64,000 nt of DNA from Gammaproteobacteria bacterium (lineage in GTDB: Bacteria > Pseudomonadota > Gammaproteobacteria > S012-40), in NCBI GenBank assembly GCA_015487785.1, contig WFPC01000055.1, positions 62,001 through 126,000 on the forward strand, given 5' to 3'. The translations under genes were made by a program, and so were the position numbers. Position 1 is the stretch's first letter. Every line of letters begins with the position of its first letter. Under the pieces are notes generated by a model. The model was not told where the DNA came from and made no database searches. It was given only the letters and a program-made list of their open reading frames with translations. Below are positions 24,916 to 54,287 of the stretch, one piece after another.

Positions 24916-26295
24916 TTACTTGTGCACGCCCAGCTTTTCGCGCCAGCCGGGGTACAGGGCATCGGCATCGTGCGGGAAGGATTCGAACGCACGGGCGAAT
25001 TCCTTGTGCTCCTTGGCCCATTCGATGGGGTCGGCGCCGGCCTTCCAGCACTCGTAAGCCTGGCGCAGGGAGATGGCGCCGGCCGCCGGGCTGTCGATGT
25101 GGCCGTAGGAACCACCGCCTGCGGTGTTGATGACATTGCCGTGGCCCAGGTTTTCGAAGAAGCCAGGCAGGCGCAGGGCGTTCATGCCACCGGAGATGAT
25201 GGGCGTGGTGGGTTTCATGCCATACCATTTCTGGTAATAGGCAGGGCCCTGGTATTCGTCGCGCTCGATGATGTAGGCAATGGCGCGGTCGTCCTTGTCG
25301 CCTTCCATCTTACCGTAACCCATGGTGCCCACGTGGATCCCGGAAGCACCTTGCAGTCGACTCATCTTGGCCAGTACGTAGGCGGTGTAGCCACGCTTGG
25401 AGGAGGGTGAAGTCACGGCACCGTGACCGGCACGGTGATAGTGCAGGTATTGGTTGGGAAACCAGCGACGAGCGGTGGTGACCATGCCGGGGCCGCCTAC
25501 GTAGCCATCCACCAGGAAGGCCACCTTGTCGGCGTCGGGACCGAAGGTTTCCAGGATGTATTCGCCGCGGGCGATCATCTCGCTGTGATCATCGGCGGTG
25601 ATGTTGGCCGAGAACAGCTTGGCCTGGCCGCTTTCGTCCTGGGCGCGTTTCATGGCATCGGCCACCAGGGGGATGACCTTCTTCATGGGCGCGAACACCT
25701 GGTTGCCCTGGGGTTCGTCGTTCTTGATGAAGTCGCCGCCCAGCCAGAACTGGTAGGCTGCCTCGGCGAAGGGCTCGGGGCGCAGACCCAGCTTGGGCTT
25801 GATGATGGTGCCGGCGATGTAGCCACCATCCTTGACGGGACGGCCGAGGATGCGCCACAGGTCGGAGATGTCCTTGGAGGGGCCGTCGAACAGCTCGATG
25901 GCGCGACGGGGCATGTAGAAATCGTACATCTTGGCGTGTTCGATGTCGCCCATGCCCTGGTTGTTGCCGATGGTCAGGGTCAGAAAGGAGACGATCATCA
26001 TGCGTCCGTCGGTGATGTTGCGGTCGAACAGATCGATGGGATAGGCGATGCGCATGTCCTCATTGGCTTCATCGATGTGATAGACCAGGGCGTCGACCCC
26101 CTTGGTGAATTCGTCGGTGGTGGATACTTCCACGTTGGTGCCGGTGGAGGACTCGGCGGCAAAGTGCGCCGCAGCTTCCAGGTAGCCATAGCCGGGTTTG
26201 GGCTTCATTTTGTAGGCAACCAGGATGTGTTGGCCGCCGGCGATCAGGTCTTCTTCTTTCAGGCTCAGATCGGCGTAACGATTGGATTGATCCAT
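24916..26295 (-). CDS. cbbM: Ribulose-1,5-bisphosphate carboxylase/oxygenase, form II
   Basis: 459 aa; '[43 protein letters not shown]' and '[42 protein letters not shown]'. Confidence 0.98.
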
Positions 26296-36167: not shown

Positions 36168-36360
36168 CAAGCGAAGGGTGGCTGGCATGCTTGCGAAAAG
36201 CACGCGTGTCGTCTACAGTAAGACCTTTGTTTTTTACCGCCGGGCGATAATCAAAGCCGGCTCTGCGTAGGGTCTTTATGGGAGAGGACAGGGGACTGCG
36301 CCGGGCCACAAGACGCGGCGGTCGGGGGCGTTGACGCCGAAGAGACTCGAAGGGGGGGAG

Positions 36361-37242
36361 ATGAACAACAGCCACCGTGGTGTTTCCGGCAGGTATTGGC
36401 GGCTCGTCGTGGGCCTGCTCTGTGGATTGTCATCGTCCATGGTCCTGGCCGGGATAGCCGAATCCGTACACAATCTGGGTATGACGGGGACCGGGCCCAG
36501 TGCCAATGGCGGTCAGCGCAACCAGTTTTCGGGCACGGCGGAGATCTGTGTGTTCTGTCATACACCGCACGGCGGTGATGCCCGTGCCGCGGTGCCGTTG
36601 TGGAACCGTCGCCTCAACAACCCTTCCAGCTATGCCACCTACGACGATCTGGGCACCAGCACCTTCGATGCCGAGGTGGCGCCGGTGGGCTCGGTGTCCA
36701 TCGGTTGTCTGTCCTGCCATGACGGCACCATGGCCATCGACAGCATGATCAACGAACCGGGTTCCGGTGCCGACAATCCCGGTTTCTCCGCCGGCACTTG
36801 GACCGGCAGCGATATCCTCGGGCCGGACGACGGCAAACTGGCGGTGGGTATCGTGCAAAACCTGGGCACCGATCTCACCAACGACCACCCCGTGGGCATG
36901 CAGTATGCCGGTGGCGGAATCTCTGCCTCCACGCCGATTCTGCCCCAGGGTGATACCACCGACCCGGACTTTGCTCCCGTGCTCTACAAGATTCGCGATG
37001 GCCGTTACCTGTGGTGGGTGGACAAAGACTGGCGCACCGGTGGCGATGGCGAGCGTAGCAAGACTGATGTGATCCTCTACACCCGTGATGCCGCCAATGG
37101 CTATCCGGGACAGACCCAGCAGGAGCCCTTCGTCGAGTGTGCCAGTTGTCACGATCCGCATACCACGGAGAACCCCACTTTCCTGCGCATCAGCAATACC
37201 GAGACACCCAGTGGCTTGTGTCTGACCTGTCATGTGAAATAG
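36361..37242 (+). CDS. Exported tetraheme c-type cytochrome, OmcE-like family
   Basis: 4 CXXCH: CVFCHTPH, CLSCHDGT, CASCHDPH, CLTCH; 'NLGTDLTNDHPVG'; signal peptide. Confidence 0.82.
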   Translation: MNNSHRGVSGRYWRLVVGLLCGLSSSMVLAGIAESVHNLGMTGTGPSANGGQRNQFSGTAEICVFCHTPHGGDARAAVPLWNRRLNNPSSYATYDDLGTSTFDAEVAPVGSVSIGCLSCHDGTMAIDSMINEPGSGADNPGFSAGTWTGSDILGPDDGKLAVGIVQNLGTDLTNDHPVGMQYAGGGISASTPILPQGDTTDPDFAPVLYKIRDGRYLWWVDKDWRTGGDGERSKTDVILYTRDAANGYPGQTQQEPFVECASCHDPHTTENPTFLRISNTETPSGLCLTCHVK

Positions 37243-37267: not shown

Positions 37268-38266
37268 ATGGTGTTGTTTCAATTCAAGCTCAAACGGCTG
37301 ACGGGCCTGATGGTCGCCGGCATGGCCCTGTTGTGTGCTTCCGCCAGTTACGCGGTATCCGAAACCCAGCAAAGGGTGCTGGGGCCGGAGGATTTCGCCA
37401 TTGTGGGTGACGAAATCATCAGCATGCGCGAATTTCAGGCCGCCTACCATGCGGGAATCCGCAAGCGCTTCTACCATGGCAAGGTGCCAGAAGAGCGCCT
37501 GCAAGCCTTCCGCAAGGAGATTTCGCAGACCCTGATCGACCGCAGCCTATTGTTGCAGGAGGCGCGTCGGCGTGGCCTTGCGCCCGACGAGGCCCAGGTG
37601 AAGGCCCAGCTGGCTCGCTACGAAGCCCGTTATCAAAAGCAGCCGCATTGGCAGGAGAACCGCGAGACCATTCTCGCGGGCCTGCGTGCCGCGCTGGAGG
37701 AGGAAAGTCTGCTCATGGTGCTGGAGCGGCAGGTCAAGGCGATGCCCGAACCCTTGCCGCAAGAGGTGCGCGAATACTACCAGGCGCATCCCGAGCTGTT
37801 CACCACGCCTGAGCAATTGCGTCTGTCGCTGATTCTGCTCAAGGTGGCGCCTTCGTCCACCGCCGAGGTGTGGCAGGCGGCCCACGAGGAAGCCCTGCGC
37901 TTGCGCCAGCGTCTGCAGAAAGGCGCCGATTTTGCCCAGATGGCGCGGATCCACTCGGGTGATGCCAGTGCCGCGGCTGGGGGTGACATGGGTTTCGTGC
38001 ACAAGGGTATGCTGGCCGCGCCGGTGCAACAGGTGGTGGATGGCCTGCAGCCGGGGCAGGTGAGCGAGCCGGTGGTGTTGCTCAGTGGGGTGGCGCTGTT
38101 TCGCCTGGAAGAGCGGATCGCCGCACGGCTGAACGATTTCGAAGCCGTGGCCGAGCGGGCCCGGCAATTGTTGCAGCGCGAGCGCAGCCAGGCGGCCTGG
38201 GAGGGTTTGCTGGCCAGGCTGCGTTCCACGGTGCAGGTTTCGGTCAATACGGCAGCCGTGGACTGA
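37268..38266 (+). CDS. Exported parvulin-type peptidyl-prolyl isomerase (PpiC/SurA-like)
   Basis: signal peptide; 'LSLILLKV...GADFAQMARIHSGDASAAAGGDMGFVHKGML...VVDGLQPGQVSEPV'. Confidence 0.9.
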   Translation: MVLFQFKLKRLTGLMVAGMALLCASASYAVSETQQRVLGPEDFAIVGDEIISMREFQAAYHAGIRKRFYHGKVPEERLQAFRKEISQTLIDRSLLLQEARRRGLAPDEAQVKAQLARYEARYQKQPHWQENRETILAGLRAALEEESLLMVLERQVKAMPEPLPQEVREYYQAHPELFTTPEQLRLSLILLKVAPSSTAEVWQAAHEEALRLRQRLQKGADFAQMARIHSGDASAAAGGDMGFVHKGMLAAPVQQVVDGLQPGQVSEPVVLLSGVALFRLEERIAARLNDFEAVAERARQLLQRERSQAAWEGLLARLRSTVQVSVNTAAVD

Positions 38267-38345: not shown

Positions 38346-40124
38346 TTGAGGCAATCTGGGGGGGCACAAGGTGTCATGGCGCGGGCGGGCAGGCTGGCCT
38401 GCGCCCTGGGTCTGGCCATGGGCGTGTGCGCGCCGATGCTCCAGGCTGCCCAGGCACCGCTCAAGCTCTACGGCGACGTGGGTTACTTCTATACCCTCAG
38501 CGAAGCCGATGGCGGTGCCCAGACCGAGAACACCTATCTCATCGGCTCGCTCAACCTCAACAGCTACCTGTGGCGGCCCTGGTTCGCCACTTTCGATGGG
38601 GGGGGGGTCATCAGTACCTCCAGCAACCGGACCAAGGCGGTGGAAACCAACACCGAGGTGCTCTCCAGCCGGCTCAATCTGGAATTTTTGCCACTGAGCC
38701 GTTTTCCCTTGCGTCTGAGCTACACCAGCAGCGACAATACCGTCGACCGCTTGAACAAGGACGAGACCATCGCCGACTTCGGGCAGTCCTTCCGCACCCG
38801 GGATTTTCTCGCCAAGCAGAGCTTCATCGGGCGCTCCGGCAAGCGCCTGGATGCCTGGTACAACTGGAAGATTCGCGGCTCCGATAATTTCGGTGAAATG
38901 GAAGACACCAACTACGGGCTCAAGTACGACAGCCGCTCGCGTACCCAGAATTTCTACGCCAGCGCCATCCGCCAGGTACAGGGGCGTTCGCTGATCGACA
39001 GTGTTTCCACCAATACCCGGCTGGATCTGACTCACAATTATTTCCCCACCAGCGAGTTCTACATCAAGTCATTGCTGAACCAGACCCGGGTCGACAACGA
39101 AATGCAGGTGGGCAATGGCAGTTTCTTCCAGCAGAGCACCACCGACATCACCCAGGCCATCAGCTTTTTCTACTGGCGCCCGGTGTACAAGCCCTACACC
39201 ATGACCGGGGGCGCGCGGGTGCTGCGGCGGGCGGTGGACCTCACCACCGCGCAGACCGACCAGCGCAGTTTCAATGCCAATATTGCGGCCAATTATTTCG
39301 TCAACCGCAAAACCCGCATCACCGCCACGGCCAATGTGGCCTCGCTGGACTCCGAGGTCAACAACAGTCTGGGATCCAAGCAGACCCTGTCGGCCCTCTA
39401 CCAGTCCGACCGGCATCTCTTCCGCGGCATAAACTACTACTGGTATGGCAGCGCGGAAGTGGGCAACGATATCAGCGCCCAGTACGAAACCACGCAAAGC
39501 CGGCAGACCGGGAGCGCCACCCTCGGTCACAGCGTCAGCCGCCAGTGGGTCACCGGCAACCGCTCGGTGTTGCGCCTCAATGCCCAGCAGTCGCTCAATC
39601 AACTGGTGGAGATCGGCGGGCGCAACGACAAGCCCCTGAGCCTGGTGGATACGGCCACCCTGGCCTGGACCGAAAACCTGCGCAAGGGTTCGTCCTATGC
39701 CCAGTTGACCTTGATGGATTCCCGGCGTCTGACCGAGCGGGGTGAGACCCAGTTCCTGAATTTCCAGCTCTCGCGTACCATGCCGCTCAGCCGTGTGAGC
39801 AGCTGGGGGGGCAATGTGTCGATACAGAGTACCCGGCGGGATGCCGGCGATGGCAGTGACACCAGCTTCCTGACCACATCCACCGCCCAGTTGAACTACC
39901 AACACGCACGGTTGTTTGGTATATATAGGCTGAAACTGAGGACCAAACTCGACCTTCTCAGCATCGCCAACCGTGGAGGCGCCAACCGCAAACAGGCTGA
40001 CTGGCAGGCCAGGTTCAGCTACATGGTGGGCAAGCTGACCACGGCGCTGTTCTTGCGGGTGGTGGAGAGTGACTCCGGACTGGGAAGCCGGATGGCCGTT
40101 TTCCAGGTCAATCGCGGCTTTTAG
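38346..40124 (+). CDS. Outer-membrane beta-barrel protein (putative porin of cytochrome conduit)
   Basis: signal peptide, alternating amphipathic strands, C-terminal '...VFQVNRGF' with terminal Phe; lies between PPIase and triheme cytochromes. TTG start, or ATG at 38376. Confidence 0.8.
   Translation: MRQSGGAQGVMARAGRLACALGLAMGVCAPMLQAAQAPLKLYGDVGYFYTLSEADGGAQTENTYLIGSLNLNSYLWRPWFATFDGGGVISTSSNRTKAVETNTEVLSSRLNLEFLPLSRFPLRLSYTSSDNTVDRLNKDETIADFGQSFRTRDFLAKQSFIGRSGKRLDAWYNWKIRGSDNFGEMEDTNYGLKYDSRSRTQNFYASAIRQVQGRSLIDSVSTNTRLDLTHNYFPTSEFYIKSLLNQTRVDNEMQVGNGSFFQQSTTDITQAISFFYWRPVYKPYTMTGGARVLRRAVDLTTAQTDQRSFNANIAANYFVNRKTRITATANVASLDSEVNNSLGSKQTLSALYQSDRHLFRGINYYWYGSAEVGNDISAQYETTQSRQTGSATLGHSVSRQWVTGNRSVLRLNAQQSLNQLVEIGGRNDKPLSLVDTATLAWTENLRKGSSYAQLTLMDSRRLTERGETQFLNFQLSRTMPLSRVSSWGGNVSIQSTRRDAGDGSDTSFLTTSTAQLNYQHARLFGIYRLKLRTKLDLLSIANRGGANRKQADWQARFSYMVGKLTTALFLRVVESDSGLGSRMAVFQVNRGF
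38598..38607 (+). repeat. G10 homopolymer inside the beta-barrel coding sequence
   Basis: TTCGATGGGGGGGGGGTCATC. Confidence 0.95.
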
Positions 40125-40308: not shown

Positions 40309-40749
40309 ATGAGAGCCAAAACGGAGCGCACAGCTGTTTGGAAAATCGCCCTCTTCGGGGTGCTGGCATGGGTGGGAGGACTGATGATGCCGCAACCGGC
40401 CCAGGCCGAGTATGCCGACGTGGTCATCAATAACTATGCGGACGCGGCGGGTATGCGCCCGGTGGTGTTTCCTCACTGGTATCATCGCATTCGTTTCCGT
40501 TGCAAGGTTTGCCACGCCGACCTGGGCTTCAAGTTCAAGGCAGGCGGTAACAAGATCACCATGGCGAAGATCATCGACGGCAAGTTCTGCGGTGCCTGCC
40601 ACAATGGCGAGATTTCCTGGTCGGTGGAAAACTGCGGCATGTGTCACTCGGGGATTCCGGGGACCCCGACCCACATCAGCGGCAGTACCGTACAACGCCT
40701 GGTAGCGCCGGCCTACAAAGCGCTGGACAAGAACAAGCAAGTGCAATAA
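40309..40749 (+). CDS. Periplasmic triheme c7-type cytochrome
   Basis: signal peptide; CKVCH, CGACH, CGMCH; 'VFPHWYHRIRFRCKVCHADLGF'. Confidence 0.9.
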   Translation: MRAKTERTAVWKIALFGVLAWVGGLMMPQPAQAEYADVVINNYADAAGMRPVVFPHWYHRIRFRCKVCHADLGFKFKAGGNKITMAKIIDGKFCGACHNGEISWSVENCGMCHSGIPGTPTHISGSTVQRLVAPAYKALDKNKQVQ

Positions 40750-40768: not shown

Positions 40769-41467
40769 ATGAGAGATACAATAAAAGGTTTTGCGATCGC
40801 TGTTTCTCTGTCGGTGATGTCGACCGCCGCATTTGCGGAAGGTGGCGTTCCCTTGGTAGCCGCCGCCTCCAAACCCGTCACCTCCGCAGAGATCACCGGC
40901 TCGGTGCCCGAGAAACTGAATATTTCCAAGGCCAATGTATTCAACCGCCTGTTGAAGAAAATCAAGGATCCCAACGCGCCGCCACCGGAAGACGGCATCC
41001 ACGACACGGCCAACGAGGCCACTTTCGCCCTGCAACCGCCCAAGGTGGCCTACGAAGGCTGGCCCCGCACCGAATACGGCAATCACGTGGACTGGGTGAA
41101 GGCACTGAACGATGGTTTGATCAATCCGCGCTACGACCGGGTGGACCCGGAAGTGGAACCTTTCGTGATGGACCTGGATATTGTGCGCCCGGTCAAGGCC
41201 TCGGTGCCGGATGTGGTGTTCCCGCACAAGCCGCATACCCAGTGGCTGCATTGCTCCAACTGCCATCCGCGCATCTTCGTACCCCAGCGTGGCGCCAACC
41301 AGATCAACATGTCGGCCATCATTCTGGGTGAGAAGTGTGGTGTGTGCCACGGCAAGGTCTCCTTTCCGATTACCACCAAGTCGTGCAAGAAGTGTCACTC
41401 CAAGCCCAAGCCGGCCGATTGGACACCGCCGCTCAGCGAAGCGAGCGTGAAGAATCCCTGGCGCTGA
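40769..41467 (+). CDS. Periplasmic triheme c7-type cytochrome
   Basis: signal peptide; CSNCH, CGVCH, CKKCH; 'VVFPHKPHTQWLHCSNCHPRIFVPQRGANQINM'. Confidence 0.9.
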   Translation: MRDTIKGFAIAVSLSVMSTAAFAEGGVPLVAAASKPVTSAEITGSVPEKLNISKANVFNRLLKKIKDPNAPPPEDGIHDTANEATFALQPPKVAYEGWPRTEYGNHVDWVKALNDGLINPRYDRVDPEVEPFVMDLDIVRPVKASVPDVVFPHKPHTQWLHCSNCHPRIFVPQRGANQINMSAIILGEKCGVCHGKVSFPITTKSCKKCHSKPKPADWTPPLSEASVKNPWR

Positions 41468-41478
41468 GCCTGGCGTTC

Positions 41479-41547
41479 GGGCGCCGCGCAAGCGGCGCCC
41501 ATAAACAAAATACATCTTGCCGCGGGCGGGTGTATTTTGTTTATGGG
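41479..41547. repeat. Composite double inverted repeat (9-bp GC hairpin with GCAA loop overlapping a perfect 17-bp AT-rich IR)
   Basis: GGGCGCCGC-GCAA-GCGGCGCCC (41479-41500) and CCCATAAACAAAATACA-N16-TGTATTTTGTTTATGGG (41498-41547). Confidence 0.9.
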
Positions 41548-41607: not shown

Positions 41608-43167
41608 ATGCAAGGATCGATATTGATGACAAGAGCAATGGGCCATCTGGGTGTGGCGATCGCGCTGGCAGCCCTGCTCAGTGGTTGCAGCGTGATGGAG
41701 CGCTTGCGCGGGGAAGAGACGGAGACGTCTACGCCCGCAGCCGAGACCGCGCCGGAGCAACAGAAGCCCAAGGCGGCCAAGGACAAGGAGCAAGTTGCGC
41801 CCGACATGGAAGTTCTGGCAACGCCGGTGACACCTCCCGCTCCGGTGGAAGATCTGCAGCCCCTGGCACCCGAGCCGGTGGAGGAGCGTGGGGCAGTGGA
41901 GCAGGAAGTTCCCGCAGCGAAACCACAGCCGGAAGAGCCTGTCAGCAAGCTGACGGATGCGCCGCCGAATACCTTTGTGGTGGAGGTGCGGGAGAAGACC
42001 GATCAGCATCCCTACTATGGCAAGGGCAGTCGCTTGGGCTTCGTGGTCGACGGCCTGCCGGGCAAGGCTATCGTGGTGCAGCGGGGCAAAACCTACACCT
42101 TTCGCGTGCGCACCAATATCAAGCACGATTTCTATCTCAGTCGCAAGGATGTGGGCTGGGGCTCGGCGGTGTATTCCCGAGGGGTCGAGGGACAGTTCAC
42201 CTATAAGGGGGACGTGAGCTTTACTCCCGATGAGCAGACGCCCGACACACTCTATTACGAGTGTCGTAATCACCAATACATGGGCGGGCGTATCGTGGTG
42301 GTGGATGCGGGAGCCGACGTGGAAGCGGTGAAGGCGCGCTTGCTCGAGGAGCGCAAAGCGGCCCTGGCCAAGCGGGCAAAGGCTGTGGCTACCGGGGTGA
42401 GTGAAACCCAGGCCAAGCAAAAGCTGGCCTATGTGAAAATGCTGTTGCGGCTCAAGACCGAGACGCTTGCGGCGTCTGTGCAACAGGGCATCGAGAGCAA
42501 GTTGCAAGCTGCGACGGAAGCCATGGCAGCGCAGGATTTCGCCATGGCCTATGCCCTGGCGGACGAGGCAGGACGGGCGTTCGCCCCAGGGCCCGGGACA
42601 CGGGGGCCCAGTGATGCCGAGCTGGCCAAGCAAAGAGACGATTATGAGCTGAAACTGGAGACGGTGCATAGTTTCCAGAAATCCCACCAGCGGGCCTTCG
42701 ATGAGGCGCAGAAATCCGGTGGCGAGATAGAGCCGGTGGATTATGATCACGCCAAGGTCGACAGCCTGGTAGTGGAAGCCGCCCGGCTGGCGGAGCAGAA
42801 CAAATATCCCCAGGCGACGCGCAAGCTGGCCCGTGCGGAGCGGGAGATCACCGTTGCTCTCAACGGGATGCTGGGATCGCGCACGGTGGTGTTCGAGCTG
42901 AAATTCGATACCCCCGCCGATGAATACCGCTATGAAGTGGATCGTTACAAGAGTTACCTGGTATTGATTCCCAAGGCGATCGAGGTGCGCAAGCCCAGCC
43001 AGGGTGCCATCAAACTGGCACAGACCTATGTGGACAAGGGCAAGTTCTTCGCCGAGAAGGCAGAGGAATCCGCCCAGGCCGGCCGTTATGCCGAGGCTAT
43101 CGTCATCGTCAAGGATGCTACCAAGGAGGTTCGGCGCGGCTTGATGATTCTCGGAGTATCCATGTGA
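41608..43167 (+). CDS. Lipoprotein with cupredoxin-like (putative type 1 Cu) domain and long helical C-terminal region
   Basis: lipobox AALLSGC; 'TYTFRVRTNIKHDFYLS...TPDTLYYECRNHQYMGGRIVV' (H...C-X2-H-X2-M); coiled/TPR-like C-terminus. Confidence 0.78.
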   Translation: MQGSILMTRAMGHLGVAIALAALLSGCSVMERLRGEETETSTPAAETAPEQQKPKAAKDKEQVAPDMEVLATPVTPPAPVEDLQPLAPEPVEERGAVEQEVPAAKPQPEEPVSKLTDAPPNTFVVEVREKTDQHPYYGKGSRLGFVVDGLPGKAIVVQRGKTYTFRVRTNIKHDFYLSRKDVGWGSAVYSRGVEGQFTYKGDVSFTPDEQTPDTLYYECRNHQYMGGRIVVVDAGADVEAVKARLLEERKAALAKRAKAVATGVSETQAKQKLAYVKMLLRLKTETLAASVQQGIESKLQAATEAMAAQDFAMAYALADEAGRAFAPGPGTRGPSDAELAKQRDDYELKLETVHSFQKSHQRAFDEAQKSGGEIEPVDYDHAKVDSLVVEAARLAEQNKYPQATRKLARAEREITVALNGMLGSRTVVFELKFDTPADEYRYEVDRYKSYLVLIPKAIEVRKPSQGAIKLAQTYVDKGKFFAEKAEESAQAGRYAEAIVIVKDATKEVRRGLMILGVSM

Positions 43168-43820
43168 GCGGCATGTCTGAAACACAAACGATGCGGCATG
43201 ATCGGAGTCGGGGTTTGGCTATGAAGGAGCGAGCGCGCCTTGGGCGCAGGATACGGGTGGTGCTGGTGATGGCAATGTTGGCCACGATGTTGCCGGCCTT
43301 TGCCTTGGACAAGAACAAGCCGGGTGTCTACGAGGAAAGTCGCGGGCATTTCCAGCTCCAGGGGGATATTGTTCCCATAGCCGAGGACGGTATTCATGAT
43401 CCCACCAATGAGGCGGTGCAGGTGCTGCAGCCGCCGGCCGAGGCCATGCTGGATTTTCCGCGTGACGACCGCGGTGTCATCAACTGGGTGGAGACTCTAG
43501 ACAAGGGATTGATCAACCCCCGCACCGGACTCACCGGGCATGAAAAGATGCATGCGGTGGATTTCGATGTCATTTTTCGCAATACCGCCTCCATGCCCTA
43601 TGTGCGTTTTCCGCACCGGCCGCATACCGTTTGGCTGACCTGCAAGAACTGTCATCCGGGTATATTCATTCCCCAGCGGGGTGCCAACCCGGTCACCATG
43701 GCCGCCATCATGCAGGGTGAATACTGTGGTGTGTGCCATGGCAAGGTAGCCTTTCCGCCCTACGAGTGCAAACGATGTCACAGAGTGCCGCGAGAAAGCG
43801 TCGGACTGCGCTACAAGTAG
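43164..43820 (+). CDS. Triheme c7-type cytochrome, paralog of the 40769..41467 gene
   Basis: CKNCH, CGVCH, CKRCH; shares 'EDGIHD.TNEA..LQPP', 'GLINPR', 'IF.PQRGAN..' with the upstream paralog. Start may be internal, at MKERARLGRR. Confidence 0.9.
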   Translation: MSGMSETQTMRHDRSRGLAMKERARLGRRIRVVLVMAMLATMLPAFALDKNKPGVYEESRGHFQLQGDIVPIAEDGIHDPTNEAVQVLQPPAEAMLDFPRDDRGVINWVETLDKGLINPRTGLTGHEKMHAVDFDVIFRNTASMPYVRFPHRPHTVWLTCKNCHPGIFIPQRGANPVTMAAIMQGEYCGVCHGKVAFPPYECKRCHRVPRESVGLRYK

Positions 43821-44794
43821 TTTTCGCGCTGTTGCTAGGCGCGGTACTGGCGGGATGTGCCAGTGCGCCGCCGTTGTCGCAGGAGCCTCATTCCAGCTCC
43901 GGAGAGCAGGCCAAGACCCTGCGTTTCCGTGCCATGCTCGATGTCGTGGATCTGGGTTCGCAGGATTTTCTCAAGCGCTTCCTGTTCGGGCGCGCCCGCT
44001 ATGATCTCAAGCAGCCCACGGCGATCGATGTGCGTGACCGCTGGATGTATATCGCCGATGCCGGCGAGGGCATGGTTTTCAAATACGACATGCAGGCCCG
44101 GCGCCTGGAGCCCATTCTGTGGGCAGGTGACCGGGTGGCAGGCGAGATTTCCGACATCTATATTGCCAAGGATCTGTCCTTCTATGCCACCGATGTACTG
44201 GGTAAGCGGGTAATACACTTCTCGCCCTCAGGTCGGGTGTTGCAGGTGTTCCAGGATGCGCCCAATATTTCACGACCCATCGCCATTCATGTGGATGAAC
44301 AACGCAAGCTGCTCTACGTGGCCGATGAGGTCTACAGCAAGATCGTGGTGTTCGGTTTTGATGGCCAGCCTCTGCGTGGCTATGGCAGGCGTGGAGAGGG
44401 TGAGGGCCGGTTTCGCATCATCACCGACATGATCAAGGCGCGTGAAGGCGGCTTCTATGTCAGCGACCGCATCGAGCTACCGGTGCAACTGCTCGACGAG
44501 CAGGGTCGGTATGTGACCCATTTCGGCGAGACGGAACTGGTTTTTCCCACCGCCCTGGCCGAGGACAGGTTCGGGCGGGTGTTCGTCAGCGACAAGTCCG
44601 ACAGCCTGATCAAGGTGTTTCGGCGCGGCAAGTTGATCGACAGCGTGGGGCGCAATGGCTATGGTGCCGGCGAGTTTCGCTATATCAGTGACATGAAGCT
44701 CAAGGGTGACACGCTCTATGTGGTGGACAGCCTCAATGGCCGGATCCAGATCTTCGATGTGCTTGCCGATGACCTGCTGACAGTCAACGATTGA
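43775..44794 (+). CDS. NHL-repeat beta-propeller lipoprotein
   Basis: lipobox AVLAGC; 'RPIAIHVDEQRKLLYVADEVYSKIVVFGFDGQPLRGYGRRGEGEGRF'. Confidence 0.88.
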   Translation: MSQSAARKRRTALQVVFALLLGAVLAGCASAPPLSQEPHSSSGEQAKTLRFRAMLDVVDLGSQDFLKRFLFGRARYDLKQPTAIDVRDRWMYIADAGEGMVFKYDMQARRLEPILWAGDRVAGEISDIYIAKDLSFYATDVLGKRVIHFSPSGRVLQVFQDAPNISRPIAIHVDEQRKLLYVADEVYSKIVVFGFDGQPLRGYGRRGEGEGRFRIITDMIKAREGGFYVSDRIELPVQLLDEQGRYVTHFGETELVFPTALAEDRFGRVFVSDKSDSLIKVFRRGKLIDSVGRNGYGAGEFRYISDMKLKGDTLYVVDSLNGRIQIFDVLADDLLTVND

Positions 44795-45873
44795 GCATGC
44801 GTTGTTTGCCGGCCTTGCTGATGGCGCTGCTCCTGCTGGGTGGTTGTGCCAGCCAGCCTGCGGTGATGCGCTATCATGTTCCGGCCGAGCCCCTGGTGTG
44901 GCCACAGGCGCCGGAGCCTCCCCGTTACCGGCTGAGCGGTATTCTGACCGGCGAAGACAATTTTCACCGGCCACCTTCCTCTGCGCAACCTTTCAAGCAG
45001 GCGTTGGCCTGGGTGGTGGGCCTGGTGCTGGGAGAGGAAGTCCCCAGGCGGTTGCAGAAACCCATTTCCGGCTTGTTCGATGCGCGCACGGGGCGTATCT
45101 ACGTGGTGGACATGGGACAGCGGGCGGTCTTCGTGTTCGATCCTGTCGTCGGGCGAGTGAGTATTTGGCGCCATGCCTCGGTCGATGCCGGTTTCGTGGC
45201 GCCGGTGGCCATTGCGCCGGGTCCGGCGGGCGAATTATGGGTGACCGATGCCGAGCGAGGGCGTATCACCCGCCTGGATGCGCAGGGCAACGTGCTGGGA
45301 GAGGTGGGTGCCGGGGTGTTGCAGAGGCCCACCGGCATCGCCCGGGACGAGGAAAATGGCCGAATCTTCGTGGCCGATACACGGGCCCACGATATCAAGG
45401 TGTTTGCCGACGATGGTCGTTTGCTGGCCCGCTGGGGAAAACGTGGGGAGCAGGCCGGTCAGTTCAACGGGCCGACCCACCTGGCCTTCGCCGATGGGCG
45501 GCTCTATGTGGCCGACACCTTGAACTCACGGGTACAGGTGTTCTCCGGCGCGGGCGAGTGGTTGCGCAGCTTTGGCCGGCGCGGACTCTATTTCGGCGAC
45601 ACGCCGCGGCCCAAGGGGGTTGCGCTGGACGGGGCCGGGCGGGTTTACGTTGTAGAATCCTACTATGACTATCTGCTAGTATACGACGCGGAGGGGCGCT
45701 TGCTGCTGCCCTTGGGAGGGACCGGATCCAAGCCCGGTCAGTTCTATCTGCCTGCTGGCGTGTGGACCGATGGTGGCAACAGGGTGTTTGTCGCCGATAT
45801 GTTCAACGGGCGGGTGGTGAGCTTCGAATACATTGGAGAGGACGCGACGGCCTCTGGAGGCGGCGGACAATAA
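44791..45873 (+). CDS. NHL-repeat beta-propeller lipoprotein
   Basis: lipobox LLLLGGC; 'RPTGIARDEENGRIFVADTRAHDIKVFADDGRLLARWGKRGEQAGQFNGPTHLAFADGRLYVADTLNSRVQVF'. Confidence 0.92.
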   Translation: MSMRCLPALLMALLLLGGCASQPAVMRYHVPAEPLVWPQAPEPPRYRLSGILTGEDNFHRPPSSAQPFKQALAWVVGLVLGEEVPRRLQKPISGLFDARTGRIYVVDMGQRAVFVFDPVVGRVSIWRHASVDAGFVAPVAIAPGPAGELWVTDAERGRITRLDAQGNVLGEVGAGVLQRPTGIARDEENGRIFVADTRAHDIKVFADDGRLLARWGKRGEQAGQFNGPTHLAFADGRLYVADTLNSRVQVFSGAGEWLRSFGRRGLYFGDTPRPKGVALDGAGRVYVVESYYDYLLVYDAEGRLLLPLGGTGSKPGQFYLPAGVWTDGGNRVFVADMFNGRVVSFEYIGEDATASGGGGQ

Positions 45874-45895: not shown

Positions 45896-48355
45896 ATGAG
45901 AAACCTGTCAGTGCGCCACATTATCGGCTGGGTCGCCTGTTGCTTGGTGTTGGGGACACCGGTGGCGCATGCCGCCAGCACGGCCTTGGCGCCCGATCGC
46001 ATTGCCGACGTCAGCAATACCAAGCACAATTTCTCCGCCGACGCACCGGATCTGCTCACCGGTGAGACCCGTGAGGTCAAGGCGCAGTCACAGAAGGAAG
46101 TCTGTGTGTTCTGCCATACGCCTCACTTCGCCAACACCGAGGTGGCGGCACCGCTGTGGAACCGCGCCCTGTCCAGTGAAACCTACACGGTCTACGATTC
46201 ATCCTCCATGGATGCCGACATGTCGGCATCGCCGCAGCCGGGGACCAGTTCCAAGCTGTGTCTGTCCTGCCACGATGGCACCCTGGCCATCGGCTCGGTG
46301 AACTCGGCCGGTGGCGGGGCCGATCTGCAGGTGGATGCCAACGGCGTCATCACTGGCATCAATCCCACCAGTATCGACATGCTCAACGGGGTGACTACCA
46401 TGCCCGCGGGTGAGGGGGTCGATACCGGGTTTACCCGCAATCTGGGTACCGACCTCTCCAACGACCACCCCATTGGCTTCGAGTACGATGCCACCCTGGC
46501 CAGCAACGATGGCGAGCTGGCCGATCCCACCACCGCCAGTGAAATCGATTCCCGCCTGGGACGGCAGGCGGCAGGGGCTGGAACCCAGACCAAGACCCAT
46601 ATCGCTGTGCCGTTGGAAAACGGCAAGCTGGAATGCACCAGCTGCCACGACCCGCATATTCGGGGCACCAATGGTGACGAAGGCAAGAATATCAAGTTTC
46701 TGCGTCTGAACCGTTTCCAGAAGGCTCAGGCCAGCGACGATGGTTTTGCCATCGATACCGACATGAATTGCCTGGCCTGTCACCGCAAGCCGGGTTGGGC
46801 TCAATCGGCCCATGCCCATCCACTGGTGGCCGATGAACGGTATACCCAGGATGCGGCTCAATTACGCGAGTTCCCGCTGGACACCCAGGTGTGGGAAGCC
46901 GGTTGCCTGAACTGCCACGATTCCCACACGGTGCCCGGTGCCCCGCGCTTGTTGCGCGAGGCCACTGACAGTACCGAAAGTCCCAAGCAGGCCGGCAATG
47001 CCGCCAGCGAAGAGGCCTGCTATCAATGCCATTCCTCCACGGGCGTATTGCAGGATCTCAGTACCGTGGCGGACGTGGAGACGGCCTTCAAGAACAGCGC
47101 GGTGAGCATGCCCATCGGCGGTGACGAGGTACACGATGTCAGTGACGCCAATCTCAACGAAGCCCAGGGATTGCTGGGCAAGGTGAGCGAGGGGGGGGCG
47201 TTGGGCAATCGTCACGTGGAATGCAGCGACTGTCACAATCCTCACCGCATGATCAAGAACACGGTATTCAATGGTGATGCCGCCACGCCAGACGCTTCCG
47301 GCACCCATGTCCATGCTGCCGGCACCGAGCATTCCAATATCGCCTCTGGGGTGCTGCGTGGTGGCATCGGGGTGGAACCCACTGGTTATGCCAGTGACGC
47401 CTTCACTGCCAAGCCCACGGGTTTTCTGGTCAAGCAGGGAGACCCTGGTGCCAATGGCTCCAGTGACATCAACGAACCCTATGTGACGCGGGAATACCAG
47501 GTTTGCCTGCGCTGTCATTCGGAGTACGCCTATGATACCCCTCCCAGTCTGGGGTTGAGTGACAGCGGTACGCCGTCGGGTACCAACGGCCTGACCCAGT
47601 ATACCGATCAGGCCATGGAGTTCCAGGCGCCCACGGGGCATCAAGGCGATGGTACCTCGGCCACCGATCCGGGCGTGGGGGCGGCCTATCAGACCAATAA
47701 TCATCGCAGTTGGCACCCGGTAATGGCGGCCACGGGCCGTACCGCGGGTCTGGATGCCTATCTGACGCCCTTCGACCAGGGGGTGGGCAACCAGACCATG
47801 TACTGTTCCGACTGTCATGGCGCAGCCACCTCACCCGGTACCGTCGAGCCGGGCACCGGCCAGACCTGGGGTCCCCATGGCTCCAACAATCCCTTCCTGC
47901 TCACGGGCAAGTGGAACGGTTCCACGGGTACCGGGCAGACCGATGGTCTGTGTTTCCAGTGCCATGACTACGATCAATACGCCAACCCTGCCACCGTTTC
48001 TGCCAGCGTGGTGGCCAGCGGTTTCGCCTGTGCCGACACGAGTTGCATCACCAGTGGCGACACGGGCCTGAGCAAGAACCTGCACATCTTTCATGCCACC
48101 GCGGCGGGCGGAGGCAATGTGCGCTGCATGGACTGCCATACCAGCGTGCCCCATGGCTGGAAGAACAAGGCCTTGCTGGTCAATCTGAACGATGTGGGTC
48201 CCGAGGCCGGACAAGTCGCGGGTACCCCGGCGCCCAGTTACCCCTATTCGCAGGAGCCCTACTATCTCGAGGCCAAGCTGAAGGTCAACGCCTTCAAGGC
48301 CAGTGGCAACTGGCAGAAATCCGACTGCGGCAGCTCGGGTTGTCATCTGCCTTGA
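45896..48355 (+). CDS. Exported 12-heme c-type cytochrome with OmcE-like N-terminal tetraheme module
   Basis: 11 CXXCH (CVFCH, CLSCH, CTSCH, CLACH, CLNCH, CYQCH, CSDCH, CLRCH, CSDCH, CFQCH, CMDCH) plus C-terminal CX4CH (CGSSGCH); signal peptide. Confidence 0.9.
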   Translation: MRNLSVRHIIGWVACCLVLGTPVAHAASTALAPDRIADVSNTKHNFSADAPDLLTGETREVKAQSQKEVCVFCHTPHFANTEVAAPLWNRALSSETYTVYDSSSMDADMSASPQPGTSSKLCLSCHDGTLAIGSVNSAGGGADLQVDANGVITGINPTSIDMLNGVTTMPAGEGVDTGFTRNLGTDLSNDHPIGFEYDATLASNDGELADPTTASEIDSRLGRQAAGAGTQTKTHIAVPLENGKLECTSCHDPHIRGTNGDEGKNIKFLRLNRFQKAQASDDGFAIDTDMNCLACHRKPGWAQSAHAHPLVADERYTQDAAQLREFPLDTQVWEAGCLNCHDSHTVPGAPRLLREATDSTESPKQAGNAASEEACYQCHSSTGVLQDLSTVADVETAFKNSAVSMPIGGDEVHDVSDANLNEAQGLLGKVSEGGALGNRHVECSDCHNPHRMIKNTVFNGDAATPDASGTHVHAAGTEHSNIASGVLRGGIGVEPTGYASDAFTAKPTGFLVKQGDPGANGSSDINEPYVTREYQVCLRCHSEYAYDTPPSLGLSDSGTPSGTNGLTQYTDQAMEFQAPTGHQGDGTSATDPGVGAAYQTNNHRSWHPVMAATGRTAGLDAYLTPFDQGVGNQTMYCSDCHGAATSPGTVEPGTGQTWGPHGSNNPFLLTGKWNGSTGTGQTDGLCFQCHDYDQYANPATVSASVVASGFACADTSCITSGDTGLSKNLHIFHATAAGGGNVRCMDCHTSVPHGWKNKALLVNLNDVGPEAGQVAGTPAPSYPYSQEPYYLEAKLKVNAFKASGNWQKSDCGSSGCHLP

Positions 48356-48610: not shown

Positions 48611-49246
48611 ATGTTAGAAGCCGAAGGGCTGGTCTGCGAGCGCGGTGACCGGATTCTGTTTGCCAATGTGGGTTTTCGGTTGAACGCGGGGGAACTCCTG
48701 CACGTCAAGGGGGTCAATGGCAGTGGTAAGACATCCTTGCTGAGGATGTTGTGCGGGCTCGTGGCTCCGGCAGCCGGAGAAATTCGCTGGCGAGGCGAAA
48801 ATATCCGCAAACAAAAAGAAGAGTACAACCGGGAACTGCTCTACATCGGCCATCAGGCCGGCATCAAGGCGGAGTTGACGGCGCTGGAGAATCTCAAGCT
48901 TTCCTGTGCCCTGAACGATGCCGGGATCGATGACGACCAGGCCTGGCGGGCGCTGGGGGACATTGGTCTTGGCGGGCGCGAGGAGCTGCCCAGCAAGGTG
49001 TTGTCCCAGGGTCAGCAACGGCGGGTGGCGCTGGCGCGGATGCTGGTGAGCCGGGCGCCGCTATGGATCCTGGACGAACCTTTCACCGCGCTGGATGTGA
49101 AGGCGGTGGCGCAATTGGAGCAGGTTCTGGGAGCGCATTTGCAACAGGGAGGCTACATCGTTCTGACCACACACCAGAATTTCACCCTGAGCCAGGGTCG
49201 TCTGCGCATGTTACACCTGGGGCCCAGCCCGGAGTCTGGCCCATGA
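48611..49246 (+). CDS. ccmA: Heme exporter ATP-binding protein CcmA
   Basis: ABC ATPase 'GVNGSGKTSLLRMLCGL', 'LSQGQQRRVALARMLVSRAPLWILDEPFTALD'; followed by ccmB. Confidence 0.95.
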   Translation: MLEAEGLVCERGDRILFANVGFRLNAGELLHVKGVNGSGKTSLLRMLCGLVAPAAGEIRWRGENIRKQKEEYNRELLYIGHQAGIKAELTALENLKLSCALNDAGIDDDQAWRALGDIGLGGREELPSKVLSQGQQRRVALARMLVSRAPLWILDEPFTALDVKAVAQLEQVLGAHLQQGGYIVLTTHQNFTLSQGRLRMLHLGPSPESGP

Positions 49247-49911
49247 TGGGCGTGCTGCGCTGGTTGTTGTGGCGGGATCTCACCCTGGCCATGCGGCGCA
49301 AGGCCGAGGTTTTGACGGCCTTGTTCTTTTTTGTCATTGTAGTGAGCCTTTTTCCGCTGGGGGTGGGTCCGGAAATGGATACCCTGAGCGAGATTGGGCC
49401 CGGTGTATTATGGGTGGCGGCCTTGCTGGCCTCCATGTTGTCGCTCAACCGCCTGTTTGCGGATGACTATGCCGATGGCACCCTGGAGCAACTGTTGCTG
49501 TCGAGTCAGCCGTTGCCCATGGTGGTCCTGAGCAAGGTTCTTGCCCACTGGCTGGTCAGCGGCTTTCCCCTGGTGCTCATATCCCCGGTATTGGGTATGC
49601 AGCTGGGGCTGGATTGGGAGAGTCTGGTGATCCTGGTTGTCACCTTGTTGCTGGGTACACCGGTGCTCAGTCTGATCGGGGCGGTGGGGGCAGGGCTCAC
49701 CCTGGGGGTGCGTGGCGGAGGTGTATTGTTGTCCTTGCTGGTGTTGCCCCTGTATATTCCGGTGCTGATCTTCGGCGCCGGCGCGGTGGAGGCCGCGCGT
49801 TCGGGTTTGGGAGCGGATGCCCATGTATCACTGCTGGGCGCGTTTTTGGTGTTGGCATTGCTGTTGGCACCCTGGGGAGGGGCTGCGGCCCTGAGAATCT
49901 CATTAGATTGA
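49243..49911 (+). CDS. ccmB: Heme exporter membrane protein CcmB
   Basis: 'LWRDLTLAMRRKAEVLTALFFFVIVVSLFPLGVGPE'. Confidence 0.95.
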   Translation: MMGVLRWLLWRDLTLAMRRKAEVLTALFFFVIVVSLFPLGVGPEMDTLSEIGPGVLWVAALLASMLSLNRLFADDYADGTLEQLLLSSQPLPMVVLSKVLAHWLVSGFPLVLISPVLGMQLGLDWESLVILVVTLLLGTPVLSLIGAVGAGLTLGVRGGGVLLSLLVLPLYIPVLIFGAGAVEAARSGLGADAHVSLLGAFLVLALLLAPWGGAAALRISLD

Positions 49912-49913
49912 TT

Positions 49914-50666
49914 ATGCAACTGTTTAGCAAAGCATTCTGGCTACAGTTTTCCTCGCCCAAGGCGTTCTATCCTTTTGCAGGAAAACTGATTCCCTGGTTC
50001 ACCGCGCTGGCTGCCGTATTTGCCGTGGTGGGCTTGTACTTGAGCTTCTTCGTGGCACCCACCGACTATCAACAGGGAGAGAGCTATCGCATCATGTTCA
50101 TCCATGTGCCGGCGGCCTGGATGTCCATGTTCATCTACCTGGTGATGTGCATCTATGCCGGCCTGGGGCTGGTGCTGAATACCCGCCTGTCCAACATGAT
50201 GGCTGCGGCCCTGGCGCCCACTGGCGCCATGTTCACCTTTCTCGCCTTGTGGACCGGTGCTCTGTGGGGCAAGCCCACCTGGGGGACCTACTGGGTGTGG
50301 GATGCCCGCCTGACCTCGGAACTGATTCTGTTGTTTCTGTATTTCGGTTACATCGCCCTGCAGGCGGCCATCGATGACCCGCAGCGGGCAGCCCGCGCCA
50401 GTGGTTTGTTGGCCATCGTCGGTGTGATCAATATTCCCATCATCTATTTTTCCGTGCAGTGGTGGAACACCTTGCACCAGGGTGCCTCGGTGACGGTGAC
50501 GCAAGCGCCCACCATGGCGGCCACCATGTTTGCGGCCATGATCGTAATGACCTTGGCATTCTGGATGTATACCATTGCCGTGGCCCTGGTGCGGGTGCGT
50601 CAGTTGATTCTGGAGCGTGAGCGTCATGCGGCCTGGGTGTTGGAGTTGGCGGAGGCCGAGAAATGA
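49914..50666 (+). CDS. ccmC: Heme transporter/lyase CcmC
   Basis: WWD-type 'ALWGKPTWGTYWVWDARLTSELILLFLYFGY'. Confidence 0.96.
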   Translation: MQLFSKAFWLQFSSPKAFYPFAGKLIPWFTALAAVFAVVGLYLSFFVAPTDYQQGESYRIMFIHVPAAWMSMFIYLVMCIYAGLGLVLNTRLSNMMAAALAPTGAMFTFLALWTGALWGKPTWGTYWVWDARLTSELILLFLYFGYIALQAAIDDPQRAARASGLLAIVGVINIPIIYFSVQWWNTLHQGASVTVTQAPTMAATMFAAMIVMTLAFWMYTIAVALVRVRQLILERERHAAWVLELAEAEK

Positions 50667-50857
50667 ACTGGGGATCGTTTGCAGATTTCCTCGCCATGGG
50701 AGGTTATGCCTTCTACGTGTGGGGGTCCTATGGGGTGACAGCCCTGTTCCTGCTGATCGAGGTGGTGTTGTTGATGAAACGCCGCCGGACCCTGATGCAG
50801 CGTTTGCTGCGTCTGGCGCGGATAAATAGAGAGGGCGGATATGAAAGCAAGACATAA
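50663..50857 (+). CDS. ccmD: CcmD
   Basis: 64 aa, '[29 protein letters not shown]' between ccmC and ccmE. Confidence 0.93.
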
Positions 50858-51302
50858 GAGATTGGCCTTTATCGGTGTCGGCCTGGCGGGTCTGGCGATC
50901 ATTGCCGCCTTGTTGCTGAATGTATTCAACAGCAACATGGTATTCTTCTTCAGCCCCACCGATGTGAAGGAAGGCAAGGCGCCGGTGGATCGTGAGTTTC
51001 GCCTCGGAGGGCTGGTGGAAGAAGGTTCCCTCAGCCGGGAAGACGATGGATTGACGGTGAATTTCAATGTCACCGATGGGGCCGAGACCATTCGCGTGAC
51101 CTATACCGGTATTCTGCCGGATCTGTTTCGCGAGGGACAGGGTGTGGTGGCCCAAGGCAAATTGGAGGGCGGTGTGTTCATGGCTTCCGAAGTGCTGGCC
51201 AAGCACGACGAAAACTACATGCCGCCGGAAGTGGCGGAAGCCTTGGAGAAGGGCAAGGCGCGGGCCGCCCAACAGAGTGGAGCGGGAGGTGTCGCGCAAT
51301 GA
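50841..51302 (+). CDS. ccmE: Heme chaperone CcmE
   Basis: '[20 protein letters not shown]', '[14 protein letters not shown]' heme-binding HXXXY. Confidence 0.97.
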
Positions 51303-53302
51303 TACCCGAGATTGGACATTTTGCCCTGATCATTGCCCTGGGGCTGGCGATGGTGCAATTCGTGCTGCCCCTGGTCGGGGCGCACCGGGGCAACCAGAGC
51401 TTGATGGCGGTCGCCCGCCCGGCGGCCCAGGGACAGTTCGTGTTCGTGGCCATTGCCTTTGGGGCCCTGGTGACGAGCTTCGTCAACAACGATTTTTCCG
51501 TGCTCTACACAGCCAATCACTCCAATTCCATGCTGCCCCTGTTGTACCGGGTGTCGGCCGTATGGGGTGGCCATGAGGGATCACTCTTGCTGTGGGTGTT
51601 GATGCTGACGGCTTGGGGCGTGGCGGTTTCGGTGTTCAGTCGCCGCCTGCCCCTGGATATGGTGGCTCGGGTATTGGGGGTGTTGGGTTTTATCTCCATA
51701 GGTTTCTATCTGTTTATGCTGATCACCTCCAATCCCTTCGAGCGCCTGATTCCACCGGTGCCGGATGGCCGCGACCTCAACCCCCTGTTGCAGGATCCGG
51801 GGCTGGCCATTCATCCGCCCATGCTCTACATGGGGTATGTGGGTTTTTCGGTGGCTTTCGCCTTTGCCATTGCGGCGCTGCTGAGCGGCAAGATGGATGC
51901 CACCTGGGCGCGCTGGTCCCGCCCCTGGACCACCATTGCCTGGGTATTCCTGACCCTGGGCATCGCCCTGGGTAGCTGGTGGGCCTATTACGAGCTGGGC
52001 TGGGGTGGCTGGTGGTTCTGGGATCCGGTGGAAAACGCCTCCTTCATGCCCTGGTTGGTGGGCACCGCCCTGATGCATTCCTTGGCAGTGACCGAGAAGC
52101 GGGGCAGCTTCAAGAACTGGACCGTGTTGCTGGCTATTTTCGCTTTCTCGCTCAGCCTGCTGGGGACCTTCCTGGTGCGTTCCGGTGTGCTGACCTCGGT
52201 GCATGCCTTCGCCTCCGATCCATCCCGGGGCATGGCGATATTGATTTTCCTGTGTGTGGTCATCGGTGGCTCCTTGCTGCTGTATGCCTGGCGGGCGCCC
52301 AAGGTGGGACTGGGAGGCAGGTTCGCCCTGGTCTCGCGGGAATCCATGTTGCTGGCCAACAACGTGTTGTTGGTGGTGGCCTGTGGCGCGGTGTTGCTGG
52401 GCACGCTCTATCCCCTGGTGCTGGATTCCCTGGGGTATGGCAAGATCTCCGTTGGTCCGCCCTATTTTAACGCCGTGTTCGTGCCTCTGATGACGCCGTT
52501 GATTTTTCTCATGGGCGTGGGGCCACTGGCGCGCTGGAAAAAGGCTAGCGTGCCGGAATTGGCCGAACGCCTGAAATGGGCGGCAGGTGTCAGCGTGGTG
52601 ACCGCGGCCCTGGTGCCCATGGTGATGGGTGAATGGTCGTTCATGGTCAGCCTGGGCATTCTGATGGCGGCCTGGATCGTGGCCAGTGTGTTTGCCGGCA
52701 TCAGCCAGCGCATTCGCCAGCGTGCCAAGGCCGGCGTGGCGGCGCGGGGCAGCATCTCGCGCAGCTACTACGGCATGCAGCTGGCGCATCTGGGGGTGGC
52801 CGTGTTCATCGTCGGTGTGACCCTGGTGATGGGCTATGAGGAAGAGCGCGATGTGCGCATGGAAGTGGGTGATACGGTGACCGTGGGAGGGTATGTGTTT
52901 CGCTTCGATGGCATCACCGAGGCACAAGGGCCCAATTATATTGCCGAACGCGGGCGTATCACGGTGACCCTGGACGGTCGCGAGGTCAGCGTGCTGTATC
53001 CCGAAAAACGTTATTACAACGTGCAACAGCAGGTGATGACCGAAGCCGCCATCGATACGGGATTCTTCGGCGATCTGTATGTTTCCCTGGGCGAGCCTGC
53101 CGGCCGTGGGGGGTGGAGTGTACGGGTGTACTACAAGCCCTTCGTGGACTGGATCTGGGGTGGCTGCGTATTGATGGGGCTGGGTGGCCTGTTTGCCGTC
53201 AGCGACAAGCGTTACCGCATTGCCGCGCGGCGTGAGAAGCGCCTGGCGGCGGAGAAATCCCGTGACGCCATGGGTGCCACGGCATCGAAGGTGAATGCCT
53301 GA
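51299..53302 (+). CDS. ccmF: Cytochrome c synthase component CcmF
   Basis: '[11 protein letters not shown]', '[20 protein letters not shown]'. Confidence 0.97.
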
Positions 53303-53823
53303 TGTTACGATTCATTGCACCGTTGTTGATTTTCGGCCTGATCGCGGCGTTTTTCTTCGTTGGCCTGGATCGGGATCCCACCAAGTTGCCTTCGGCCCTG
53401 ATCGACAAGCCGGCGCCGGCGTTTACCCTGCCGCAACTGCATCAGCCGGAGCAGAGTTTCTCGCCTGAACAGATGAAGGGCAAGGTCTGGCTGCTCAATG
53501 TATGGGCCTCCTGGTGTGCGGCCTGCCGTACGGAGCATCCCCTGTTCATGGAGCTGTCGCGCAAGGGCGTGCCATTGTACGGCCTCAATTACAAGGACAA
53601 GCGCAAGGATGCCCTGCAGTGGCTGCAGCAACTGGGTAATCCCTATCGGGTGAGTGTTTCCGATTTCACTGGCGACGTGGGTATCGATTACGGTGTCTAT
53701 GGGGTGCCGGAAACCTTCGTTATCGACAAGCAGGGCATTATTCGCTACAAGCATGTGGGCCCGATTTCCCGTCAGGACTGGGAAAACACCATTGAACCCA
53801 TCATCAAGGAGTTGCAGGGGTGA
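53302..53823 (+). CDS. ccmG: Thiol:disulfide interchange protein CcmG/DsbE
   Basis: 'WLLNVWASWCAACRTEHPLF', 'GVYGVPETFVIDKQGIIRYKHVGP'. Confidence 0.95.
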   Translation: MLRFIAPLLIFGLIAAFFFVGLDRDPTKLPSALIDKPAPAFTLPQLHQPEQSFSPEQMKGKVWLLNVWASWCAACRTEHPLFMELSRKGVPLYGLNYKDKRKDALQWLQQLGNPYRVSVSDFTGDVGIDYGVYGVPETFVIDKQGIIRYKHVGPISRQDWENTIEPIIKELQG

Positions 53824-54287
53824 AACGTATTCTACTCGCTGTGGTATTCGCGGCCACCGTGACGCCGGTGACGGCCAAGGAAGCCGAACCCTTGGAAGAT
53901 CCAGTCTACCAGGAACGCTTCGAGGCCCTGACCAAGGAGCTACGCTGTCTCAAGTGCCAGAACCAGACCATCTTCGATTCCAAGGCCGGCCTGGCCGACG
54001 ACCTGCGCCGCCAGATCAGGGAGCAGATGTACCAGGGCAAGAGCGACGAGGAAATCGTCGACTACCTGGTGGCGCGTTATGGTGATTTCGTGCGCTACCG
54101 GCCGGACTTCAAGGCCTCCACCTTGTTCCTGTGGGTGGGCCCCTTCCTGTTTCTCGTCATCGGCATCGCCATGCTGGTGCACCAGATCCGCAAGCGCCGC
54201 AGCGTGGAAGACGTTGCCCCCCTGAGTGAGGAAGAGGCCAAGCGCGTGCGGGCGTTGATCGATACTCAAGGCGGAGAAAAGAATTAA
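53820..54287 (+). CDS. ccmH: CcmH
   Basis: 'LRCLKCQNQTIFDSKAGLADDLRRQIREQMYQGKSDEEIVDYLVARYGDFV'. Confidence 0.96.
   Translation: MKRILLAVVFAATVTPVTAKEAEPLEDPVYQERFEALTKELRCLKCQNQTIFDSKAGLADDLRRQIREQMYQGKSDEEIVDYLVARYGDFVRYRPDFKASTLFLWVGPFLFLVIGIAMLVHQIRKRRSVEDVAPLSEEEAKRVRALIDTQGGEKN

Follow-up and report, generated by a model that had tools for sequence, protein, structure and literature searches.

The gene at the F position of a gammaproteobacterial uet cluster codes for a lipoprotein, UetF, with a predicted cupredoxin domain. This protein is probably a type-1 copper relay tethered to the outer membrane between heme proteins (probability of the whole explanation roughly 0.6). Besides its hemes, the uet wire probably includes a copper step. 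The gene occupies positions 41608..43167 (+) of the window, the whole stretch of 64,000 nucleotides, and its lipoprotein, linker, cupredoxin and helical parts were delimited from the sequence and its homologs. The architecture is conserved, the four candidate ligands are invariant, the gene is syntenic with heme genes, and the cupredoxin domain was gained or lost once among the clusters compared.

The uet Locus and Its Gene Order

Gene order and heme counts identify the locus as the known uetABCDEFGHIJ (undecaheme electron transfer) cluster, whose heme proteins presumably conduct electrons through the outer membrane. The published cluster codes for a tetraheme UetA, an isomerase UetB, a porin UetC, triheme UetDEG, NHL proteins UetHI and an undecaheme UetJ (PMC10734462, PMC12575090). 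These two papers describe it from Tenderiales and some Gallionella and attribute its name to Eddie 2022. The window has the same order and heme counts, all genes being on the + strand: uetA (36331..37242), a tetraheme cytochrome with 4 CXXCH; uetB (37268..38266), a PpiC/SurA-type peptidyl-prolyl isomerase; uetC (38346..40124), a candidate beta-barrel porin; the triheme c7 cytochromes uetD (40309..40749) and uetE (40769..41467); uetF; a third triheme c7 cytochrome, uetG (43164..43820); uetH (43733..44794), an NHL-type beta-propeller lipoprotein; uetI (44791..45873), an NHL-repeat lipoprotein; and uetJ (45896..48355), an undecaheme cytochrome with 11 CXXCH. The triheme genes feature c7 and nanowire_3heme domains. 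UetC (592 aa) is assigned by its position; it matches no porin or other family model of Pfam or NCBIfam, but each of the sampled type-1 clusters (defined below; 22/22) has a homolog of it in the corresponding place. The placement of uetF among c7 genes of a multiheme locus, proposed in a reading of the sequence alone, is borne out by its two triheme c7 neighbours.

In 'Ca. Tenderia electrophaga' the trihemes are Tel_16515, Tel_16520 and Tel_16530 and the undecaheme protein is Tel_16545 (PMC5371394). Between Tel_16520 and Tel_16530 lies Tel_16525, reported in 2017 as a 'tetratricopeptide repeat' (TPR) protein, apparently co-transcribed with the trihemes and detected as peptides; the trihemes beside it are among the most highly expressed genes, and the co-transcribed TPR protein was proposed to align the cytochromes as a 'TPR bridge' (PMC5371394). 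Spacing is the same in the window, with the F gene between the second and third trihemes and the 11-heme gene three genes after the third triheme. The window gene has the cluster position of Tel_16525, and the two are matched by position and gene order. The window itself probably belongs to the order Tenderiales. The sequence-only reading had held that no described conduit has this component, which does not stand as worded, the cluster being published and its F-position gene having been reported. A cupredoxin at F is nevertheless unmentioned in PMC5371394, PMC10734462 and PMC12575090, where F is described as a TPR protein or left unlisted, without a copper domain; the paper that named the cluster may differ.

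Directly 3' of uetJ (48611-55540) are found ccmA, ccmB, ccmC, ccmE, ccmF, a dsbE/ccmG-type gene, an nrfF/ccmH-type gene and ccmI. The cytochrome c maturation (ccm) genes code for the heme-attachment machinery. The interval between uetE and uetF holds two strong hairpins (41478-41547; fold z-score -4.4), the second of which is a perfect 15-bp inverted repeat, CATAAACAAAATACA/TGTATTTTGTTTATG, that occurs once in the genome. They are possibly an attenuator or a processing site inside the operon. Further upstream, a RuBisCO large chain is coded at 24919-26295 (-) and matches PRK13475 (form II type); its neighbours, identified by eye, are a MoxR-like ATPase and VWA genes. The large chain and its neighbours are consistent with an autotroph.

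Organization of the UetF Protein

The open reading frame starts with the ATG at 41608, ends with the stop codon 43165-43167 and codes for 519 aa in an exact frame. An alternative ATG at 41626 has a better Shine-Dalgarno sequence (AAGGA, 9 nt upstream) and would give 513 aa, a difference of six residues. The lipoprotein signal peptide, recognized from the sequence and its relatives, spans 41626..41688 (+). Its lipobox LLSGC, found exactly as first read, ends in the lipidated Cys27 (codon 41686-41688), which is followed by Ser, a non-Asp residue. The tether of about 90 residues that comes next (residues 28-118; 41689..41961, +) is unconserved in the alignment and rich in Pro, Glu and Ala (17% P, 18% E, 13% A over residues 28-117), in agreement with the Pro/Glu-rich linker first noted there.

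The cupredoxin domain, delimited by Pfam, AlphaFold2 and fold search, covers residues about 119-236 (41962..42315, +) and is PF25489-like. Its motif NIKHDFYLS...YYECRNHQYMGG provides the candidate copper ligands His173 (42124..42126, +), Cys219 (42262..42264, +), His222 (42271..42273, +) and, as candidate axial ligand, Met225 (42280..42282, +), the last three with the spacing C-X2-H-X2-M. Cys27 and Cys219 are the only cysteines of the protein, Cys219 being the sole one that is not lipidated. CRNH was considered as a heme-binding motif and rejected, as it is not CXXCH.

The helical domain (residues 240-519; 42325..43164, +) was delimited by family searches, locus comparison and modelling. It is rich in A/E/K/L, has no Cys and matches no Pfam or NCBIfam family; its counterparts are separate genes in type-2 clusters. 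The helical part of about 280 aa noted at the outset is reproduced by the single-sequence model of the full-length protein, whose pLDDT of 40 makes it usable only as an indication of 'mostly helical'. The designation as a TPR protein was rejected, no TPR model of Pfam or NCBIfam matching this helical sequence.

Fold of the Cupredoxin Domain

PF25489 (At5g54830-like) scored 30.0 bits with the domain alone and 25.6 bits with the full protein, the gathering cut-off being 27. The other Pfam copper-protein families had no match to UetF, and a single member of its family touched Cu-oxidase_3 (E 0.098). Sequence searches of the PDB gave no significant known cupredoxin, only chance matches to antibodies and marginal cupredoxins at E > 0.1.

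The fold was modelled with AlphaFold2 from an alignment of the window domain and its viral relatives. The domain is predicted as an eight-stranded sandwich (pLDDT 86.4, pTM 0.80), in line with the Greek-key beta sandwich of type-1 cupredoxins. In it H173 immediately precedes strand 5 and C219 is the end of strand 7, with H222 and M225 in the 7-8 loop. Blue-copper proteins have the same placement, with a His upstream, the Cys at the end of strand 7 and His and Met in the 7-8 loop, and the C-X2-H-X2-M loop has the spacing of amicyanin. Among PDB structures, the best fold matches (Foldseek) include CueO and further laccases, rusticyanin, and a pseudoazurin into which an amicyanin loop was engineered; the probability versus blue-copper proteins is 1.00 and the TM-scores are moderate (0.45-0.61). 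The model gives the UetF domain a cupredoxin fold with its candidate ligands at cupredoxin positions, and both the cupredoxin-like segment and the candidate H, C, H, M ligand set that had been read from the letters are supported by it.

The eight-stranded fold, the upstream H and the C-X2-H-X2-M loop are shared with amicyanin, pseudoazurin, plastocyanin and rusticyanin. UetF differs from these classical type-1 cupredoxins in that it has no significant sequence match to them, belongs to a different Pfam family (PF25489) and unites its candidate copper-site domain with a lipid anchor and a helical part in a single tethered polypeptide.

Conservation of the Candidate Ligands

A UetF homolog is present in 13/13 genomes searched within the order of the window. 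They come from a separate genome search; the related-locus search of genome contigs with the window protein alone gave no match. No substitution of H173, C219, H222 or M225 occurs in the homologs of the same order (13/13), among the full-length homologs, which represent at least 11 gammaproteobacterial families (29/29), or in the relatives that have the cupredoxin alone (5/5). Full-length cupredoxin-helical proteins were found far outside the order by a profile search of a class sample. Mean column identity is highest in the cupredoxin domain (0.67 versus 0.56 in the helical domain and 0.31 in the linker). The invariant ligands (13/13, 29/29) in the best-conserved segment of the protein argue that the cupredoxin motif is not due to chance. 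The lipobox Cys is found in 18/22 UetF relatives, in none of which it is followed by Asp, and the four relatives that lack it also lack the long linker.

Relatives are also found outside the uet cluster. Two genomes of one family (L054:9263-10069 and L055:9585-10478) code for a secreted cupredoxin that resembles UetF and continues into a short helical tail; in both, the gene adjoins the same pair of genes. UetF-like proteins with the helical part only, several of them bearing a lipobox, occur alone in L058, L059, L076, L077, L078 and L079; they have no multiheme genes nearby and their genomes also have a type-1 cluster. In addition to a cupredoxin-bearing UetF (L005), genome G003 has a mini-cluster (L056:8201-10223) in which two trihemes accompany a helical-only lipoprotein that lacks the cupredoxin.

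Viral Relatives of the Domain

A pattern scan of viral contigs yielded at least 78 domains. Cupredoxin-like domains with the motif YYYCxNHxxMGG and an H/C/H/M set are very numerous in marine viral contigs (L081-L160), many of them in large structural proteins. The 78 viral domains extracted among the matches listed all match the UetF cupredoxin profile (best E 5e-17). Note that their C, H and M are present by construction since the scan pattern contains them; the upstream His is not in the pattern and is invariant in a 26-row alignment. The fold search also matched tail proteins of Prochlorococcus and Synechococcus phages and giant-virus 'beta-sandwich' proteins. By profile and fold, PF25489 and the phage domain with the YYYCxNHxxMGG motif are of the same family as the UetF domain and have the same four ligands. 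The viral copies are in tail fibres and other virion proteins, away from hemes, whereas UetF is coded inside a heme operon. Because the domain is not special to conduits but common in marine phage structural proteins, its conserved ligands suggest that a metal is bound, not necessarily that electrons are transferred. Electron transfer by the viral copies is unlikely, and the conservation of the ligands may reflect a structural metal site.

Two Types of uet Cluster

The comparison set comprised the window and 31 sampled clusters picked from profile matches, so that the 22:9 ratio of the two types is no estimate of their abundance. Type 1 (22/31 and the window) has a single gene for a cupredoxin-helical protein, located between trihemes E and G, and lacks an additional D-like triheme. 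Type 2 (9/31) has helical-only genes at F, two in 8/9 clusters and one found in L042, with no cupredoxin, and a fourth triheme gene that codes for a second D-like triheme. The UetE of four type-2 clusters (L037, L039, L052, L080) and of the partial L041 is a fusion of an amino-terminal monoheme class-I-like cytochrome c to the triheme (4 CXXCH), an organization found in none of the sampled type-1 clusters. Strict absence of the NHL gene H was dropped as a marker of type 2, L037 having a weak H-like match.

One branch with 100/100 support parts the two types in the tree built from UetB, UetD, UetE, UetG and UetI. This single, fully supported branch implies one gain or loss of the copper domain; being one event, it leaves the anti-correlation of the copper domain with the extra triheme without independent statistical weight. 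Since that event, all four candidate ligands have been retained in at least 11 families. The type-2 clusters, which have no cupredoxin, indicate that copper is not essential to this type of conduit. A tentative reading, on balance doubtful, is a copper-for-heme swap: the tethered copper site would perform the relay step for which the sister lineage uses a fourth triheme, in some cases with the monoheme cytochrome c fused to UetE. It is likened to the exchange of plastocyanin and cytochrome c6, but with a covalently tethered copper site.

A Proposed Tethered Copper Relay and Its Alternatives

The explanation preferred here places UetF as an outer-membrane lipoprotein on the periplasmic side. 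By the Lol rule, a non-Asp residue after the lipobox Cys directs a lipoprotein to the outer membrane, and the UetF anchor with its non-Asp second residue suggests the inner leaflet of that membrane. Through about 90 disordered residues the anchor would hold both a type-1 (blue) copper domain, carrying one electron at an H-C-H-M site, and the carboxyl-terminal helical domain, which would dock or hold the periplasmic trihemes UetD/E/G. The tethered domain may swing between heme proteins, the linker supplying the reach, and would relay single electrons between UetC/UetA/UetJ at the outer membrane and the trihemes of the periplasm, inward during uptake. The location of UetF at the outer membrane, its binding of copper and its redox activity are inferred, as are a direct exchange of electrons with hemes and the direction of their flow. 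The order and heme counts matching uet, the invariant ligands, C219 as lone free Cys, the predicted fold with its blue-copper matches, the constant place of the gene between trihemes E and G in type 1, the ccm genes 3' of the cluster and the apparent co-transcription and the peptides reported for Tenderia were counted in favour of the relay. The same domain in phages, the moderate TM-scores, the lack of a significant sequence match and type 2 without cupredoxin were counted against it.

The main rival is a scaffold with a structural metal site, in which the helical domain aligns the trihemes and the cupredoxin is a structural or interaction domain whose metal stabilises the fold. It would account for the helical domain occurring alone in type-2 clusters and elsewhere, for the frequent occurrence of the same domain and ligands in tail fibres of phages and beta-sandwich proteins of giant viruses, and it agrees with the alignment role that the authors of 2017 had in mind for their co-transcribed TPR protein (PMC5371394). 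Yet none of the sampled type-1 conduits has lost the cupredoxin or changed a ligand, and an exposed Cys/His/Met loop would presumably be costly in the periplasm unless a redox-type metal is bound; a scaffold role alone is considered unlikely.

Two other roles, copper handling and the direct oxidation of Fe(II), have a lower probability. Cupredoxin-like proteins that face the periplasm can take part in delivering copper, and UetF might be a copper chaperone, buffer or sensor outside the electron path, for example to supply a terminal oxidase. However, uetF invariably lies within the heme operon, flanked by two triheme genes, and its site is a closed H-C-H-M type-1 set, whereas copper chaperones usually have an open Met/His-rich site, which renders this role improbable. 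A catalytic role is also improbable; here the copper domain would take electrons directly from a soluble donor, for instance Fe(II) or Cu(I), and pass them on to the trihemes. One of the fold matches of UetF, rusticyanin, is a copper protein from a chain that oxidises Fe(II), and cupredoxin proteins of Sideroxydans increase during magnetite oxidation (PMC12016527), but UetF has one mononuclear site and shows neither a further metal motif nor an oxidase motif, and its lipid anchor points to the periplasmic side, remote from insoluble donors.

Relation to Known Conduits and Significance

MtrCAB, MtoAB and PCC3 resemble the window cluster in coding for a candidate barrel and multiheme proteins in one operon. 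They differ from it in having one long periplasmic multiheme protein where uet has several small trihemes, and as described they have no copper component. A copper protein beside c-type cytochromes is found in the outer-to-inner chain Cyc2/rusticyanin/Cyc1 of Acidithiobacillus ferrooxidans (for example PMC5982212). Rusticyanin is a soluble separate protein, while the putative copper domain of UetF is covalently tethered and encoded in a porin-multiheme operon.

The uet cluster itself and copper proteins beside cytochromes in iron oxidation (rusticyanin) were already known. As far as the uet descriptions in PMC5371394, PMC10734462 and PMC12575090 go, a candidate copper domain in a subunit of a porin-multiheme operon, predicted from sequence and model, is new. 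By the same descriptions, the split of uet into conduits with and without the copper domain is new as well. Porin-cytochrome conduits are currently treated as heme-only wires. If the conserved subunit does hold type-1 copper, a copper step would have to be added to models of how electroautotrophs and iron oxidisers take up electrons, and it would bring its own potential, copper requirement and regulation. The natural versions of the conduit with and without the copper domain allow a direct comparison of the role of such a step.
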